The notes below the pieces were generated by a model. The model was given only the letters and a program-made list of their open reading frames with translations. It made no database searches and was not told the DNA's origin. A program made the translations under genes and the position numbers. Shown here one piece after another: positions 24,266-38,448 of a stretch of 64,000 nucleotides of DNA. How positions within the stretch are numbered: position 1 is the stretch's first letter; each line of letters begins with the position of its first letter. The stretch is from Acidobacteria bacterium Ga0077551 (lineage in GTDB: Bacteria; Pseudomonadota; Alphaproteobacteria; Caulobacterales; Hyphomonadaceae), in NCBI GenBank assembly GCA_001464545.1, contig LNFC01000023.1, forward strand, positions 62,001 through 126,000, given 5' to 3'.

Positions 24266-24413
24266 TTTAGGGGCGAGTTCCTCAGTTTATCCACAGGAGT
24301 AAGGGTTAGATAGTGCAGGCCAGACGGACGTGCCAGCCTTTGCGTTGCGCGGCCAAGGGGCGCATGCTAGGCGCGAGGCCCGGCAGCCACCCGGACAGAG
24401 TAGAGGATTTATA

Positions 24414-27027: not shown

Positions 27028-27620
27028 TGTGGCAGGACCTTCCGGACACGGAGATAGTCTAGGAGCGGCAACAGCGGCAGGCCAAGGATCGAGAAATAGT
27101 CGCCCTCGATGCGGGAGAAAAGCTGCGCGCCGTGGCTTTCGAGCTGGTAGGCGCCGACTGTCGTGAGCAGCGTGTCGCCGCAGCGGGCCACATAGTCGTC
27201 GATGAATTCTGGCGAGAGCGTGCGCATCGTGAGCTTCGGGCGCGCGAGATGGCGCCACACGGAACGGCCCTCCTCGCAGACGACGATGGCGGTCTCCAGC
27301 GTATGCGATTTTCCGGAGAGGCGGATGAGGTGGCTTTTCGCCTCCGCCAGATCGCGCGGCTTGTCGAACGCTTCTTCGTCGAGCGCGAGCATCTGGTCGC
27401 CGCCGATCACAAGTCCGGGCCGCGACTGCGACACGCGGATGGCTTTCATCTCGGCGAGCTGCATGGCCTGGTCGCGCACGGACACGCCGTCTGCACGCAT
27501 CGCGGTGCGGTACGAATCTTCATCGACGTTTGGCGCAACGGCTTCGGCGCTGACGCCGGCAGCCGTCAGCAAGGCGCGGCGGCTGGCGCTGCCGGAAGCG
27601 AGCGTAACGGCGAGGCTCAC
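27024..27620 (-). CDS. maf: Maf-like nucleotide pyrophosphatase
   Basis: A 198-residue housekeeping NTP pyrophosphatase that removes modified or non-canonical nucleotides and is linked to septum control. Signatures: LASGSASRRALLTAAG (phosphate loop), VIGGDQMLALDEEAFDKP, LSGKSHTLETAIVV and GAYQLESHGAQLFSRIEGDY. Start GTG 27620 overlaps the ppsR stop (GTGA); the frame upstream is not conserved. It sits on the leftward side of the origin together with ppsR. Confidence 0.94.
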   Translation of the reverse strand: MSLAVTLASGSASRRALLTAAGVSAEAVAPNVDEDSYRTAMRADGVSVRDQAMQLAEMKAIRVSQSRPGLVIGGDQMLALDEEAFDKPRDLAEAKSHLIRLSGKSHTLETAIVVCEEGRSVWRHLARPKLTMRTLSPEFIDDYVARCGDTLLTTVGAYQLESHGAQLFSRIEGDYFSILGLPLLPLLDYLRVRKVLPQ

Positions 27621-28459
27621 GGATGGCCCCGGCGTTCGTGCAGAAGGTTTAGGATCGCGGCGGCGGTTTCTTCGACCGAGCGGCGCGAGACGTCGATGGT
27701 CTTCCACTGGTTGCGCTGGAACAGGCGGTTCGCCTGCGTGATTTCCTCGCGCACGGCCTCTTCGTCGGCATAGTCGCCAGCGTCATCCTGGTTGAGCGAG
27801 ATGAGGCGCTGCCTGCGGATCTGGACGAGACGCTCTGCGGAAATCTTCAGGCCGACGACGAGCGGACCCTTGTCGCCCATCTTCTCCAGGAAGTCCGGCA
27901 ACGGGGCGCCCGGCACCAGCGGGATGTTGCCGGCGCGGACCTTGCGGTTGGCGAGATAGACGCAGGTCGGCGTCTTCGACGTGCGGCTGACCCCCAGCAG
28001 GATGACATCGGCGCCGATCAGGCTTTCCATGTTCTGGCCGTCATCGTGCGCGAGCGTGAAGTTGATCGCTTCCATCCGCTCGAAATAATCCTCGTCCATC
28101 GCGTGCTGGCCGGCGACACGGTTGTTGGCGGCGACGCCGAGATGGCGGCTCAGCATCGCGATCGAGGGATCGAGGACTGGCAGCGTCGGAATACTCCGCT
28201 CACGGCAGAAGGATTCAAGGCGGGCGCGCAGGCCGGAATCGGAGATGGTGTACCAGACGACACCGGGCGCCGCCTCGATCTCGCGGGTAACGCGTTCGAG
28301 CTGGCGCTCGGAGCGGACAAGGTAATAGTTGTGCTCCAGCGGCTGGACATTCTCGAACTGCGCGCAGGCGGCGCGCTGCACGGCGTTCAGTGTCTCGCCG
28401 GTGGAGTCCGAGACGAGGTGCACATTGAAGTAGATGGCGGGCCGGGTAGGGCGTGTCAT
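27617..28459 (-). CDS. ppsR: Pyruvate, phosphate dikinase regulatory protein / PEP synthetase regulator (DUF299)
   Basis: A 280-residue bifunctional kinase/pyrophosphorylase controlling PPDK or PEP synthetase by phosphorylation of the swivelling domain. Signatures: FNVHLVSDSTGETLNAVQRA and a P-loop-like GVSRTSKTPTCVYLANRK, then KVRAGNIPLVPG. This is the RP001/CC_0001-type gene that flanks the replication origin opposite hemE in Caulobacter and Rickettsia. Start ATG 28459 fits the family; the longer frame enters the origin region. First gene of the leftward five-gene chain. Confidence 0.92.
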   Translation of the reverse strand: MTRPTRPAIYFNVHLVSDSTGETLNAVQRAACAQFENVQPLEHNYYLVRSERQLERVTREIEAAPGVVWYTISDSGLRARLESFCRERSIPTLPVLDPSIAMLSRHLGVAANNRVAGQHAMDEDYFERMEAINFTLAHDDGQNMESLIGADVILLGVSRTSKTPTCVYLANRKVRAGNIPLVPGAPLPDFLEKMGDKGPLVVGLKISAERLVQIRRQRLISLNQDDAGDYADEEAVREEITQANRLFQRNQWKTIDVSRRSVEETAAAILNLLHERRGHP

Positions 28460-28497
28460 GTGCCTGTCTTGCCGGGGCTTCCTTCTTTGCACAAGGG

Positions 28498-28515
28498 TTG
28501 TGACTCGCCTGTGGA
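28498..28515 (+). repeat. 18-bp direct repeat in origin region, copy 1
   Basis: TTGTGACTCGCCTGTGGA; copy 2 at 28679-28696 differs at one base. Each copy joins a GACTC methylation site to a TGTGGA DnaA-like half. Confidence 0.85.
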
Positions 28516-28554
28516 ATGCGCTGCAGCCCACAGGGACTCACACGCATTCCACAG
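28509..28554. repeat. 12-bp perfect inverted repeat in origin region
   Basis: CTGTGGAATGCG (28509-28520) and CGCATTCCACAG (28543-28554), 22 bp apart. Each arm contains a DnaA-box-like TGTGGAA element. Confidence 0.85.
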
Positions 28555-28616
28555 CTGGGAGAATTCGACTCCCGCGCGGTCACGGCCTGTTCCGTCCTGT
28601 GATTCCCCTTGAGGCT

Positions 28617-28631
28617 TTAACGTTGCGTTAA
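28617..28631. promoter_or_regulatory. Perfect CtrA box (TTAA-N7-TTAA) in origin region
   Basis: TTAA-CGTTGCG-TTAA matches the full CtrA consensus. In Caulobacter, CtrA bound at such boxes in Cori blocks replication initiation in swarmer cells. Confidence 0.75.
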
Positions 28632-28678
28632 CCATTGAGAGTCGCCGGGAATCTGCTCGCCTGTCAGGCGAGCGGCGC

Positions 28679-28696
28679 TTGTGACTCGCTTGTGGA
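28679..28696 (+). repeat. 18-bp direct repeat in origin region, copy 2
   Basis: TTGTGACTCGCTTGTGGA, 17 of 18 bases equal to the copy at 28498; it runs into TGTGGATTT and the adjacent GGTGGACAA. Confidence 0.85.
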
Positions 28697-28803
28697 TTTT
28701 GGTGGACAAAGCCGTTGAAACGAGGCTCTCCAACCTATCTGCAGCTTCATAACTATAAGCGCCCTGACGGGCTCGTTTGAAATGGGATGAAAAGGGGAAG
28801 GTG

Positions 28804-29841
28804 ATGACGGCCACCAGCGGGAAAAAATTTCTGGATGTGCTTTCAGGTCAGGCGGTCTCCCCTCCCCCAGTCTGGATGATGCGGCAGGCTGGCCGGCACC
28901 TTCCGGAATATCTCGAAACCCGCTCACGCGCGCGCGACTTTCTCGACTTCTGTTATACGCCGTCCCTGGCGGCTGAGGCGACGCTGCAGCCGGTGCGCCG
29001 GTATGGCATGGACGCGGCCATCCTGTTTGCCGACATCCTGCTGATCCTTGATGCCATGGGTCTCGGCGTCACGTTCGAAAAGGGCGAAGGCCCCCTGGTC
29101 GAAGTGATTAACACGCCGTCAGACCTGCAGCGGGTCAAACCGCAGGCGGCTGCCGACAAGCTGTCGCCCGTCTATGAAACGGTTTCGCGGGTGAAGGCCG
29201 AACTGCCGCCATCCTGCGCGCTGATCGGGTTTGCCGGGTCGCCCTGGACCGTGACGCTGTATGCTGTCGAAGGCCGGGGCAAGACCGACAAGTCGATGGC
29301 CTGGTGCTGGGCGCATGGACGCCCGGATGATCTGGCGGCGGCGATGGACCTCGTCGGCGAAGCGACCGCGCATTACCTCGCCCGCCAGGTCGAAGCGGGC
29401 GCCGATGCGCTGATGCTGTTCGACAGCTGGGCGGAAGGCCTGCCGGACAATATCTTCGAGGAAGTCATCATTGCGCCGACCAAGAAACTGGTGGCGCGCC
29501 TGCGCGGCATGGGCGTGACCGTGCCGATCATCGGCTTTCCGCGCGGGGCGGGCGTCATGGTGCCGGACTACGTGGCCGCAACGGGCGTTACGGGCGTAGG
29601 CCTCGATACCGCGGCCCTGCCGAAATTCATCAACAGCACCCTGCCCCCGAATTTCCCGGTTCAGGGCCATCTCGATCCCTTGCTCCTGATCGAGGGAGGT
29701 GCGCGTCTTGACGCACGGGTGGACCAACTTCTGGACGCCTATCGCGGCCGGCCCCATATCTTCAATCTTGGCCACGGGGTTCGTCCGGAAACCCCGATTG
29801 CGAACGTCGAGCGCGTTCTGGCCCGGATTCGAAAAGGATAA
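28804..29841 (+). CDS. hemE: Uroporphyrinogen decarboxylase
   Basis: A 345-residue cytosolic enzyme converting uroporphyrinogen III to coproporphyrinogen III in heme synthesis. Signatures: PPPVWMMRQAGRHLPEY (the two Arg of the active site), ILFADILLILDAMGLGV with the catalytic Asp, IGFAGSPWTVTLYAVEGRG, and the C-terminal FNLGHGVRPETP. ATG 28804 lies 6 nt after AAAGGGG; TTG and GTG codons just upstream are weaker choices. It begins the rightward hemE-hemH-hemJ unit beside the putative origin. Confidence 0.97.
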   Translation: MTATSGKKFLDVLSGQAVSPPPVWMMRQAGRHLPEYLETRSRARDFLDFCYTPSLAAEATLQPVRRYGMDAAILFADILLILDAMGLGVTFEKGEGPLVEVINTPSDLQRVKPQAAADKLSPVYETVSRVKAELPPSCALIGFAGSPWTVTLYAVEGRGKTDKSMAWCWAHGRPDDLAAAMDLVGEATAHYLARQVEAGADALMLFDSWAEGLPDNIFEEVIIAPTKKLVARLRGMGVTVPIIGFPRGAGVMVPDYVAATGVTGVGLDTAALPKFINSTLPPNFPVQGHLDPLLLIEGGARLDARVDQLLDAYRGRPHIFNLGHGVRPETPIANVERVLARIRKG

Positions 29842-34207: not shown

Positions 34208-36072
34208 TGCCGCACGCGGCCGACTTTGATGTGATCGTGATCGGCGGCGGCCATGCCGGCTGCGAAGCTGCGGCGGCCTCTGCCCGCTTCGGCGCGCGCA
34301 CGGCGCTCGTCACCCACAAGCGGTCGACTATCGGCGAGATGAGTTGCAACCCGGCCATCGGCGGTCTTGGCAAAGGTCACCTCGTCCGGGAGATCGATGC
34401 GCTCGACGGCGTCATGGGACGTATGGCCGACAAGGCCGGCATCCAGTTCCGGATGCTCAACCGGTCGAAGGGTCCGGCCGTCTGGGGCCCCCGCGCGCAG
34501 ATCGACCGGAAGCTTTACCGCGAAGCGATGCAAGCCGAACTCGGCGCGTACCCGAACCTGACGATCATCGAGGACGGCGCCGACGATCTGATCGTCGAAG
34601 ACGGACACATGGCCGGGATCACCGGACTCTCTGGAACCGTTTACCGCGCGGCCAAGGTCGTGATTACGACCGGCACCTTCCTGAAGGGCGTCATCCATAT
34701 CGGCGCCAAGCGGATACCGGCTGGCCGGGTTGGCGAAGCGCCGGCCATCGGATTGTCGGACCGGCTCTACGCGCTCGGCCTTCCGATGGGGCGCCTCAAG
34801 ACAGGGACGCCCGCGCGGCTCGATGGCCGCACGATCCATTGGGACCGGCTCGAGATGCAGCCGGCGGATGACCAGCCGATCCCGTTCAGCTTCCTGACCA
34901 CCCGGATCGATGTGCCCCAGGTTGCCTGCGGCATTACCTGGACGACGCCCGAGACCCACGCGATCATCGACGCGAACCTCAACCAGTCGGCGGTCTATTC
35001 CGGCGCGATTGCCGGACGCGGGCCCCGCTATTGCCCTTCGATCGAAGACAAGGTCCACCGGTTCGCCGACCGGGATCGCCACCAGATCTTCCTCGAGCCG
35101 GAAGGCCTCGACGACCACACCGTCTATCCGAACGGCATCTCGACCTCTCTGCCGGAAGAGATCCAGGACCAGTTTGTCCGGACGATCCCCGGCCTGGAGG
35201 ATGTTGTCATCCTCCAGCACGCCTATGCCATAGAGTACGACTATGTGGACCCGCGCGCGCTTTCGCCGGCGCTCGAAGTGAAGGCGCTCGCCGGCCTCTA
35301 TCTCGCCGGTCAGATCAACGGCACGACCGGATATGAGGAAGCCGGCGCCCAAGGCCTGATGGCGGGTCTTAATGCGGCCCGTGCGGCGGCCGGAAAAGAC
35401 CCCGTCATCTTCGACCGGGCCGAGGCCTATATCGGCGTTCTGATAGATGACCTCGTGACCCGGGGTGTCACCGAGCCCTATCGTATGTTCACATCGCGCG
35501 CCGAATACCGTCTCGCGCTCCGGGCCGACAATGCCGACCAGCGTCTCACGCCGCGCGGACTTGATGCCGGATGCGTCGGTCCGGAACGCGCCGCAATGTT
35601 TCACGTGAAACATCGGGCGCTGGATGAGGCTCGGGCGAAACTCAAATCCTTGACCCTGTCTCCCGCCGCCGCGGTAAAGGCGGGTTGGACCATCAATCAG
35701 GATGGCCGCGTCCGGTCGGCCTGGGAGTATCTCTCCTACAAGGACATCACGCTGACCCATCTCCGCGCCGTCTGGCCGGAGTTGGAATCGATCCCGGACG
35801 CGATTGGCGCGCAGATCGAGATTGAAGCGCTGTATGCCGCTTACCTTGACCGGCAGTCGGATGACGTCGCCGCGCTCCGGCGCGATGAATCTCTGACGCT
35901 GCCCGAGAGTCTCGACTATGATGCCATTGGAGGTCTCTCGAACGAGGTCCGGTCCAAGCTCAAGGCCGTGCGTCCGATGACCCTCGGCCAGGCGGCGCGA
36001 ATCGAGGGTGTCACACCCGGGGCCTTGACCGCACTGCTCGGTCACGTGAAACGCGTCCGGCGAACAGGCTAG
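34207..36072 (+). CDS. mnmG: tRNA uridine-5-carboxymethylaminomethyl(34) synthesis enzyme MnmG (GidA)
   Basis: A 621-residue FAD enzyme and partner of MnmE. The N-terminal FAD motif is [19 protein letters not shown]; then [40 protein letters not shown], the catalytic-loop [38 protein letters not shown] and the C-terminal helical domain ending LGHVKRV. ATG 34207 fits the family; the longer upstream frame is mnmE in another frame. A perfect parS palindrome is embedded at 35597-35612. Confidence 0.97.
35597..35612. other. parS: parS centromere site within mnmG
   Basis: Perfect 16-bp palindrome TGTTTCACGTGAAACA, identical to the widespread ParB-binding consensus; the symmetry extends to 18 bp (35596-35613). 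It encodes MFHVKH in the mnmG frame and is about 1.1 kb from parA. Confidence 0.95.
36038..36053. other. Degenerate parS-like half site at end of mnmG
   Basis: TCGGTCACGTGAAACG matches 12 of 16 parS bases, including the uninterrupted TCACGTGAAAC core, between the two perfect sites. It may be a weak ParB site or a codon-driven chance match. Confidence 0.35.
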
Positions 36073-36090: not shown

Positions 36091-36714
36091 ATGACAGACA
36101 ATAACGACCGCGCGGCCTTTCTGGCCGCCCACTATGTTTCACGTGAAACATTGGCCAAGCTCGACATCATCATCGAGACGCTCGACCATTGGCGAACGCG
36201 GAGCAATCTGATCGGCCCGAAAGAGTGGCCGCAGATCTGGGCGCGGCATGTCGGCGACTCCGTCCAGCTGCTCGACCGGATCCCGGACACGGCCCGCGTG
36301 GTCGACCTCGGATCGGGCGCCGGCTTTCCCGGATTGATTCTCGCGGCCGCCCGTCCGGCGGGTCATGTGACGATGATCGAAAGCGTCGGAAAGAAATGTG
36401 CGTTTCTGCGCGCCGCCATCGAAGCCGCTGACTTACCTGCCGAAGTCCATCAAGGGCGGGTCGAAGCAGCGCCCCCGATCGCCGCTGCTTACGTCACTGC
36501 ACGCGCTTTTGCCCCGCTCCCGGAGCTCCTCGATTATGCCGCGCCCTGGCTGTGCAAAGGGGCAACAGGGGTGTTCCCGAAGGGCGAACGCTGGAAAGAA
36601 GAATTGACGGCAGCCCAGCAAAGGTGGAATTTCGCGTATCAAGCGATTCCAAGTCGCAGCGGTGGTGCCGGGGTAATTTTAATCGTCAGGGAAGCGGCAC
36701 GTCGTCATGGCTAA
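36091..36714 (+). CDS. rsmG: 16S rRNA (guanine527-N7)-methyltransferase
   Basis: A 207-residue SAM methyltransferase (GidB) modifying G527 of 16S rRNA. Signatures: LDHWRTRSNLIGPKEWPQIW, RHVGDSVQLLDRIP, the SAM motif VVDLGSGAGFPGLILAAARP, VGKKCAFLRAAIEAADL and VTARAFAPLPELLDYA. A perfect parS site is embedded at 36135-36150. Its last 8 bases overlap parA, so the mnmG-rsmG-parA-parB genes form one tight unit. Confidence 0.96.
   Translation: MTDNNDRAAFLAAHYVSRETLAKLDIIIETLDHWRTRSNLIGPKEWPQIWARHVGDSVQLLDRIPDTARVVDLGSGAGFPGLILAAARPAGHVTMIESVGKKCAFLRAAIEAADLPAEVHQGRVEAAPPIAAAYVTARAFAPLPELLDYAAPWLCKGATGVFPKGERWKEELTAAQQRWNFAYQAIPSRSGGAGVILIVREAARRHG
36135..36150. other. parS: parS centromere site within rsmG
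   Basis: A second perfect TGTTTCACGTGAAACA palindrome (18-bp symmetry 36134-36151), encoding CDS residues YVSRETL. It lies 538 bp from the first parS and about 0.6 kb before parA. Confidence 0.95.
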
Positions 36715-37513
36715 GCCTAGGATATTTGCAGTTGTGAACCAGAAGGGCGGAGTCGGAAAAACGACGACGTCGATTAACCTTGGCACGGCGCTTGCCGCCG
36801 TCGGGCGCCGGGTCCTGATCGTCGACTTCGACGCGCAGGGGAACGCCTCGACCGGCCTGGGCATCTCCCGGGCGGAGCGCCTCCAGACGTCTTATGATCT
36901 TGTGGTCGACCGGATCCCGCTTGAGGAAGCTGTCCTCTCCACCATCGTGCCGCGCCTCGACATCATTCCCGGCGACGAGAACCTGTCAGGCGTCGAGACC
37001 GAACTCGCGGGCGATGCCCACCGGTCCTACCGGCTCAAGGAAGCGCTGCAGACCTATATCGCGCGCGCCGAGACCGGCGACCTCGTGAAGTACGACTATG
37101 TCCTGATCGACTGCCCACCGTCGCTGTCGGCCCTGACGATGAACGCCATGACGGCGGCCGATGCGCTGCTCGTTCCGCTGCAGTGCGAGTTCCTGGCGCT
37201 TGAAGGTTTGTCGCAGCTCCTGCGCACGGTCGAGGTGGTCCGCTCGGGTCTCAACCCGACGCTTGAAATCCAGGGCGTGGTCCTGACCATGTATGACCGG
37301 CGCAATTCGCTGTCTGACCAGGTGGCCAACGAAGTGCGCTCCTTCTTCGGCTCCAAGGTCTACAATACGGTCATCCCGCGCAACGTGCGCCTGTCCGAAG
37401 CACCATCCTTCGGCAAGCCGGCTCTCCTTTATGATTATCGCTGCCCGGGCAGCGAGGCGTACATCCGTCTCGCTTCGGAGGTCCTGCAGCGCGAGAAGGC
37501 GAGGGTGGCATGA
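36707..37513 (+). CDS. parA: Chromosome-partitioning ATPase ParA (Soj)
   Basis: A 268-residue deviant-Walker ATPase that binds DNA nonspecifically and moves ParB-parS complexes poleward. The Walker A' is VNQKGGVGKTTTSINLGTA; A' partner region VLIVDFDAQGNASTGLGI; Walker B VLIDCPPSLSALTMNAM; and the C-terminal VIPRNVRLSEAPSFGKPALL is typical of chromosomal ParA/Soj. Overlaps rsmG by 8 bp and parB by 4 bp. Essential for cell-cycle progression in Caulobacter relatives. Confidence 0.98.
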   Translation: MAKPRIFAVVNQKGGVGKTTTSINLGTALAAVGRRVLIVDFDAQGNASTGLGISRAERLQTSYDLVVDRIPLEEAVLSTIVPRLDIIPGDENLSGVETELAGDAHRSYRLKEALQTYIARAETGDLVKYDYVLIDCPPSLSALTMNAMTAADALLVPLQCEFLALEGLSQLLRTVEVVRSGLNPTLEIQGVVLTMYDRRNSLSDQVANEVRSFFGSKVYNTVIPRNVRLSEAPSFGKPALLYDYRCPGSEAYIRLASEVLQREKARVA

Positions 37514-38448
37514 GCGCAGATCCCCAGGATGACGGCCGCCGCGCCTCGCGGCTCGGACGAGGCCTTTCGGCCCTGATCGGCGAAGTCGAGGCCATGGGTG
37601 TGCGCTCGCCCGCGGCAACTGTACCAGCCCCGGATGTTCCGCCCACGGAACGACCGAACGAGATCGCGCTCGACCTGATCCGCCGTAACCCGGCCCAGCC
37701 GCGCCGCAGCTTCGATGATGGCGAACTGCGTGAGCTTTCGGAATCGCTGAAGACCAAAGGCGTCCTCCAGGCGATCCTCGTTCGCCCCGATCCGAAAGAG
37801 GCCGGCAAGTTCCAGATCATCGCCGGGGAGCGCCGCTGGCGTGCCGCGCGCATGGCGGGGCTCACCCATATCCCTGCCGTCGTCAAAGACGTCGACGAAC
37901 TCGCCCTCCTCGAGATCGGCATCATCGAGAACGTCCAGCGCGCCGACCTCAACCCGGTCGACGAGGCAGAGGCCTATGACGCGCTGATCAAGCGCTTCGG
38001 CCGCACCCAGGACAGTCTCGCGACCAGCGTCGGCAAGAGCCGCGCCCATATCACCAATACGCTCCGCTTGCTCCAGCTTCCGGAAGGCGCGCGCCGCCAT
38101 ATCCGCGAAGGCCGCATCAGCGCCGGCCATGCCCGCGCGGCGCTCGGTTGCGCCAACCCCGAGGCGCTCATCGAGCTTGCCATCGAAAAGGGCCTCAGTG
38201 TTCGCGAAGTCGAGGCCAAGGCCCGCGAGTCGCGTGAGGCGACCCTCGAGACCAAGTCGATGCCGCCGAAGCCAGTCATGGAAAAGGACGTCGATACCGA
38301 AGCCCTCGAAGCGGACATCAGCCGCGAGCTGGGCCTCGTAGTCGATATCCGCCATGGCCGGGAAGGGGGCGAGATCCGGATCAAGTACCGCGACCTCGAA
38401 CAGCTCGACGAAGTCTGCAAACGCCTGACAGCGAAGCGCAAGCTCTAA
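37510..38448 (+). CDS. parB: Chromosome-partitioning protein ParB
   Basis: A 312-residue CTP-dependent DNA clamp that loads at parS and spreads. N-terminal RLGRGLSALIGEVEAMG (ParA-contact region); the CTPase/ParB-N domain about 55-145 with GGELRE-like helix, NPAQPRRSF and the clamp motif IIAGERRWRAARMAGL; HTH QDSLATSVGKSRAHITNTLR; and a C-terminal dimer domain with IRIKYRDLEQLDEVCKRL. Two perfect parS sites lie within 2 kb upstream. Confidence 0.98.
   Translation: MSADPQDDGRRASRLGRGLSALIGEVEAMGVRSPAATVPAPDVPPTERPNEIALDLIRRNPAQPRRSFDDGELRELSESLKTKGVLQAILVRPDPKEAGKFQIIAGERRWRAARMAGLTHIPAVVKDVDELALLEIGIIENVQRADLNPVDEAEAYDALIKRFGRTQDSLATSVGKSRAHITNTLRLLQLPEGARRHIREGRISAGHARAALGCANPEALIELAIEKGLSVREVEAKARESREATLETKSMPPKPVMEKDVDTEALEADISRELGLVVDIRHGREGGEIRIKYRDLEQLDEVCKRLTAKRKL

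Follow-up and report, generated by a model that had tools for sequence, protein, structure and literature searches.

Does the short gap between the divergent genes ppsR and hemE hold the chromosomal replication origin of this bacterium, and how are the DnaA-like motifs and the methylation sites inside it related to each other? The window in which we addressed these questions is the whole stretch of 64,000 nucleotides that was analysed, itself part of a 246,081-base contig in a draft assembly of 3.08 Mb and 25 contigs; the dnaA gene of the source genome lies on another contig than the gap. A preliminary description had placed a likely origin between divergent ppsR and hemE, and family scans above curated cut-offs confirmed both genes and the coordinates of the 344-bp interval that separates ppsR (minus strand) from hemE (plus strand). 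It had also reported that the genes switch from leftward to rightward at this point. This holds for the adjacent genes, which run outward on both sides (leftward ppsR, maf, aroE, coaE, and dnaQ; rightward hemE, hemH, hemJ, rho, mnmE, mnmG, rsmG, parA, and parB, with the labels maf, hemJ, aroE (partial query), and parA given to model matches below curated cut-offs); farther from the gap the strands are mixed, as for secB at 24330 on the plus strand. Using the parS 16-mer as a query, we found two perfect matches, and these and parAB stand 7-8 kb from the gap. The features of the locus are as follows:

27617-28459, minus strand: ppsR-type gene (PEP synthase/PPDK regulator family), left flank; family scan above the curated cut-off
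28460-28803, no strand: putative Cori-type chromosome replication origin (ppsR-hemE gap); gene context, H. neptunium mapping, and skew in closed congeners
28804-29841, plus strand: hemE, right flank; family scan above the curated cut-off
35597-35612, no strand: parS-type centromere site 1; perfect match to the 16-mer
36135-36150, no strand: parS-type centromere site 2; perfect match to the 16-mer
36707-37513, plus strand: parA-like partition gene; below model cut-offs
37510-38448, plus strand: parB, partition gene; family scan

The genus of the window is presumably Hyphomonas, in keeping with this layout, with H. neptunium probably a congener; genome G042 of our collection is presumably H. neptunium itself. 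The published sources are cited here for the available parts of their text. The preliminary description regarded the placement of the origin as established for relatives, and this is borne out by marker-frequency sequencing in H. neptunium, which puts the maximum, and with it the origin, near hemE, with two parS sites and with parAB about 7 kb off (PMC6650430, in part), the same layout as around the gap of the window. The position itself is already known for that species from this work, in which neither GC skew nor the dnaA gene nor DnaA sites were clearly informative (PMC6650430, in part), and CtrA ChIP-seq revealed binding at the same origin (PMC7200025, in part). We consider it almost certain that the ppsR-hemE gap is where a Cori-type chromosomal origin lies; by extension from relatives, it would function in the source species as an origin of this type, dependent on DnaA.

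A comparison across the family is consistent with this placement. Of 103 family genomes with a ppsR match, 90 were taken in. The distance between ppsR and hemE was 332-399 bp in 87 of the 88 family loci measured, and 338-347 bp in 39 loci of the genus (L103 apart). The 88th locus, L103, measured 754 bp in a poor, 74%-complete draft; it was included in the composite counts given below, and was left out of the family alignment (87 sequences) and the parsimony set (40 members). Its extra ~410 bp (genome G066, gap positions ~180-600) carry a small open reading frame that looks zinc-ribbon-like by eye, and represent either a misassembly or an insertion. The genus set comprised 42 genomes, from which L086 was left out for having no hemE match on its stretch, yielding 41 origins. 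In the family alignment the conserved blocks of the gap are the TGTG cores, the CtrA-type box, and an AT-rich element before hemE, and the TGTG cores are invariant over 40 genus members. The gap is thus built to a plan, with near-fixed length and conserved blocks.

The dnaA gene is no marker of the origin in this genus. In Caulobacter, dnaA lies near Cori, whereas in six closed congeners (G074, G075, G055, G042, G046, and G062; some genome lengths rounded) it was found 0.48-0.60 Mb from the gap. It is on the ppsR side in five of these and on the hemE side in G046; a distance kept at ~0.48-0.60 Mb on either side is what would be expected for inversions symmetric about the origin.

Cumulative GC skew had been named in the preliminary description as a check on the origin, with a minimum at another locus, for example near dnaA, counting against it. 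Within the window this check goes the wrong way: the cumulative skew peaks near 31 kb instead of reaching a minimum there, and the skew is positive to the left of the gap and negative to the right (8000-62000), even though the genes on either side keep the conserved order. The inversion is also seen at third codon positions, determined with a rough gene caller that calls some antisense frames, and the 246,081-base contig is a mosaic of both skew signs. We therefore rejected local GC skew as proof of an origin in the source genome; with its reversal at the gap and its patchwork of signs along the contig, it is unable to place the origin there, and neither supports nor refutes it.

At the level of the genus the same check favours the gap. 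We performed a skew test on 20-kb stretches from three closed congeners (40, 20, and 20 stretches), fixing the terminus exactly opposite the origin, and found that the best split into arms was the origin interval containing the gap in all three. For G074, the best interval was 1155-1270 kb, which takes in the gap (1242.6-1242.9 kb) and was equalled by none of 20,000 permutations; for G062 it was 1215-1330 kb, with the gap just below 1293.2 kb (P = 0.0002); and for G042 it included 0, the position of the gap (P = 0.015). When two breaks were left free, G074 again gave the gap as its best fit; G062 preferred a first break at 640-830 kb and ranked the gap interval second, and G042 preferred one at 30-122 kb and ranked the interval holding 0 third. 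With the terminus held opposite, then, skew in these three closed congeners does not point to another locus.

Next, we characterized the elements of the gap itself. GANTC is the methylation site of CcrM, and DnaA boxes were scored against the consensus TGTGNATAA. Parsimony steps are the numbers of changes on the tree described below:

28499-28506, plus strand: composite A, weak DnaA-like box TGTGACTC with CcrM site GACTC; parsimony steps N 5, G 0, A 1, T 2, C 2
28510-28518, plus strand: second DnaA-like box TGTGGAATG, 11 bp from composite A; motif scan
28535-28542, minus strand: composite inv, TGTGAGTC with CcrM site; parsimony steps N 5, other four positions 0
28545-28553, minus strand: second DnaA-like box TGTGGAATG, 11 bp from composite inv; motif scan
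28567-28571, no strand: CcrM site GACTC with no DnaA-like box; parsimony steps 1, 0, 0, 1, 1
28598-28605, plus strand: single composite TGTGATTC with CcrM site, without a TGTG box at 11 bp; parsimony steps N 5, G 0, A 0, T 0, C 1
28617-28631, no strand: CtrA-type box TTAACGTTGCGTTAA (TTAA-N7-TTAA); motif scan, and CtrA ChIP-seq in H. neptunium (PMC7200025, in part)
28639-28643, no strand: CcrM site GAGTC, unconserved in the genus; parsimony steps 7, 10, 11, 7, 7
28649-28653, no strand: CcrM site GAATC, poorly conserved in the genus; parsimony steps 7, 1, 3, 1, 3
28680-28687, plus strand: composite B, TGTGACTC with CcrM site; parsimony steps N 4, G 0, A 0, T 0, C 2
28691-28699, plus strand: second DnaA-like box TGTGGATTT, 11 bp from composite B; motif scan
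28747-28764, no strand: conserved AT-rich element before hemE (family consensus ~TAATAATNATAAGNGCCC), a candidate unwinding or promoter element; family alignment

The preliminary description had counted DnaA-like motifs, a CtrA box, and many GANTC sites within 190 bp. The methylation sites stood up well: there are seven GANTC in the gap (starts at 28502, 28535, 28567, 28601, 28639, 28649, and 28683), and this 190-bp cluster is the densest in the window, which holds 124 GANTC in total (Poisson P = 1.3 × 10−7 for at least seven per 190 bp). None of 3000 dinucleotide shuffles of the gap reached seven, the mean being 1.5, indicating that the origin is enriched in methylation sites. The one CtrA-type box also stood; a strict TTAA-N7-TTAA occurs at 28617 and at one other place in the window, and a strict box was found in 31 of 40 genus gaps. 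At 28651-28666, a second CtrA-type element of the family consensus is degraded in the species of the window. The DnaA-like motifs are present only in degenerate form. The sequence TTATNCACA is absent from the gap, its sole copy in the 64-kb window being at 24287, and every TGTG box in the gap is weak by the consensus (5-7 of 9 positions), with 6 or 7 of 9 for the boxes described. The predicted degenerate boxes read TGTGGA at 28510 and 28691 and TCCACA at 28548. DnaA-like boxes in family gaps are often paired at an 11-bp pitch, that is, two 9-mers with 2 bp between; in the window, the pairs A (28499/28510) and B (28680/28691) are both direct, and inv (28553/28542, minus strand) is reversed.

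DnaA-like motifs and GANTC sites in the gap are partly the same sequences. The composite TGTGANTC is a weak DnaA-like TGTG box in which the final base of TGTG starts GANTC, so that the last five bases are a CcrM site; in the genus, most pairs have one box of this form. All four copies in the 64-kb window fall in the gap; their total is at chance level (4 against 4.4 expected), and the placement alone is unusual. With the exception of 28598, each of the four has a partner box at a distance of 11 bp, or one helical turn. Across the 41 origins of the genus we found 171 copies of TGTGANTC, 3-5 apiece, where shuffles of the gap of the window give 0.05, and for 131 of these 171 a TGTG box stands at a distance of exactly 11 bp; each origin holds 5-10 GANTC, and the gap of G042 has five TGTGANTC and nine GANTC. 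Congener DNA sampled to a total of 1.6 Mb contained no 360-bp stretch with more than two TGTGANTC. Searching 26 of the 42 genus genomes for TGTGANTCNNNTGTGGA, we found it in all 26, in one or two copies and always beside ppsR; its backwards control was found in none of them.

Outside the genus, the composite is hardly above chance: of 273 genomes of the order, 5 contain TGTGANTCNNNTGTGGA and 3 contain its backwards control. The five comprise G078, G177, and G277, with the hit in the ppsR-hemE gap, and G215 and G219, with neither gene in the 2-kb stretches. Two of these loci, L243 (G177) and L276 (G277), belong to one genus of a different family and each have a single TGTGANTCNNNTGTGGA in their ppsR-hemE gap, where it lies on the opposite strand; this is possibly an independent gain, seen in few cases. 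In other families of the order, 19 of 20 gaps were measured (L241 was dropped for having no hemE match), with a single TGTGANTC in 3 and none in 16.

We had also considered that each composite might be a weak box with a clearly better partner, and this was dropped: over the 41 origins, composites match the consensus at a mean of 6.1 of 9 positions and all TGTGG boxes at 6.5, and in the species of the window composites match at 6 of 9 and their partners at 6, 6, and 7. Among the open-licence papers of PubMed Central that were listed for the subject, we came across no description of CcrM sites overlapping DnaA boxes. GANTC positions in Caulobacter origins may be given by Shaheen et al. 2009 and Taylor et al. 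2011. What is new here is that CcrM sites are built into several DnaA-like boxes of a Cori-type origin.

To assess selection on these sites, we counted parsimony changes at each position of the four composite slots of the window, using a tree of 40 genus members based on the initial 800 bases of hemE. Summed over the slots, these came to 0 for G, 1 for A, 19 for N, 2 for T, and 5 for C, and the picture was the same over 30 bootstrap trees. The share of changes at N among those at A, N, T, and C has a binomial P of 9 × 10−7, to be read with the slots having been picked on the species of the window and the genus members being related. GANTC was missing from slot A in 6, from inv in 0, from the single slot in 1, and from B in 2 of 40 origins. 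Selection for GANTC inside DnaA-like boxes is strongly indicated by this pattern. This pattern is absent from the three GANTC that lie outside boxes, and conservation of GANTC as a general property was rejected: the sites at 28639 and 28649 are unconserved, that at 28567 has no free N, and arrays in the neighbouring genus have no clean pattern.

All 28 origins from the neighbouring genus have TGTGGA as the first box of their left pair. At this box, positions 5 and 6 show no changes and positions 7 and 8 show 6 and 7, respectively, whereas the genus of the window has TGTGANTC there; the constraint on the left pair thus differs between the genera. Three loci of the neighbouring genus (L143, L152, and L138) hold tight GANTC arrays at gap ~90-130, with a 6-bp pitch and three then two sites. 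The pair GAATCcGACTC, which resembles these 6-bp arrays, occurs in part of the genus of the window (L105).

Three other explanations bear on these observations. A possible but unlikely one accepts the gap as the origin and has the GANTC sites serve GcrA-sigma70 promoters of hemE and ppsR, with the overlap with boxes a by-product of crowding. GcrA is encoded in the genome, its binding in Caulobacter depends on N6-adenosine methylation (PMC3667746, in part), and the gaps of related genera also carry GANTC clusters outside DnaA-like boxes. However, crowding poorly explains four slots that share the same overlap with N free and A, T, and C mostly fixed, or the 3-5 composites in 41 of 41 origins. 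A promoter and terminator scan of the gap, of a kind that is weak in this group, gave nothing useful beyond a single sigma70-like site on the minus strand, and the available text of PMC7200025 mentions GcrA at the ctrA promoter, not at the origin.

It is less probable still that TGTGANTC is simply the box preferred by the DnaA of this genus, with CcrM and methylation irrelevant. The invariant TGTG cores would fit such a preference, and a shifted specificity is possible as residues beside the DnaA signature differ, for instance LYAHR or LYAFR in the genus against LHAWR or IHAWR in its neighbour. Yet the signature DHTT itself is kept in all 13 readable proteins among 15 DnaA (G055 and G042 left out), the next residue being V in 12 and I in one, and an altered DnaA was rejected as the cause of the box form. 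Moreover, TGTGGA is retained in many second boxes of the same origins, and a preference fixing G, A, T, and C with only the middle base free would have to coincide with the CcrM site. Finally, that the gap is merely a divergent regulatory region with the origin elsewhere, for example near dnaA, is scarcely credible: the inverted skew of the window and the distant dnaA of the six closed congeners would suit it, but the H. neptunium marker frequency (PMC6650430, in part) and the skew of three closed congeners speak against it.

We return to a Cori-type origin whose weak DnaA-like boxes bear CcrM sites. C. crescentus Cori is alike in that hemE flanks it (PMC6650430, in part), that it has CtrA sites and only moderate or very weak DnaA sites, the weak ones dependent on cooperation (PMC4468827, in part), and that it holds several GANTC (PMC3973325, in part). 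The boxes of the window should likewise be weak; in Cori, the weakest boxes need the cooperation of neighbours (PMC4468827, in part). Cori differs in having five CtrA binding sites (PMC4468827, in part) against one strict box in the gap of the window, and, as far as Cori is known here from the literature alone, in that some weak sites of the window are GANTC sites, mostly in an 11-bp register with another box. For H. neptunium, the term "DnaA box" does not occur in the main text of PMC6650430, nor "GANTC" in that of PMC7200025.

Another parallel in arrangement is E. coli oriC, where methylation sites (GATC) lie inside or overlap low-affinity DnaA sites, DnaA sites 2 bp apart give an 11-bp pitch for 9-mers, and SeqA bound to hemimethylated GATC blocks the low-affinity sites (PMC8488378, in part). 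The pair of enzyme and site is Dam and GATC there and CcrM and GANTC in the genus of the window, and alphaproteobacteria have no SeqA homolog (PMC6090056, in part). Origins rich in the adenine-methylation site of the host are also known from repABC replicons and from Vibrio cholerae ori2; binding of RctB to ori2 iterons is methylation-dependent, and binding of RepC in vitro is methylation-independent (PMC6090056, in part). Those origins use RepC or RctB (PMC6090056, in part), whereas the gap of the window would be a main-chromosome origin using DnaA.

These parallels suggest a mechanism. DnaA would spread cooperatively over the weak boxes of the gap. The boxes would be fully methylated before firing, hemimethylated after passage of the fork, and restored by CcrM late in the cycle; the methylation state would alter the filling of the boxes, directly or through a reader protein, and altered filling would help to hold firing to once per cycle, with CtrA at 28617 as a second brake. 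The genome encodes GcrA as well as a CcrM-like methyltransferase of 360 amino acids (specificity presumed), which has a RAMA domain. That CcrM methylation controls DnaA loading on the predicted weak boxes is a tentative proposal, to which we give less than an even chance; we lowered our estimate because the partner boxes are hardly stronger by consensus. Counting against it, initiation is normal in C. crescentus without CcrM (PMC3973325, in part); overproduction of CcrM there is reported to add chromosome copies (PMC3973325, in part). Somewhat more doubtful is the evolutionary form of the idea, in which the genus, independently of Dam and SeqA, would have evolved an origin with CcrM sites as weak DnaA boxes, where hemimethylation keeps new origins refractory until late CcrM, possibly through a reader of hemimethylated GANTC. 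Taken as a whole, a Cori-type origin with GANTC-bearing weak DnaA-like boxes, where methylation acting on DnaA loading is the most tentative part, is a probable reading.

The genus of the window very probably includes a cultivable model, H. neptunium. Degenerate boxes of the kind described here could explain why searches for DnaA sites in H. neptunium were unclear (PMC6650430, in part). For C. crescentus, the answer on the role of CcrM in origin firing is "not required" (PMC3973325, in part), and the genus of the window appears to have the CcrM site fixed inside weak DnaA-like boxes. With the site apparently fixed in these boxes genus-wide, a role of CcrM in firing would be directly testable by four one-base changes.
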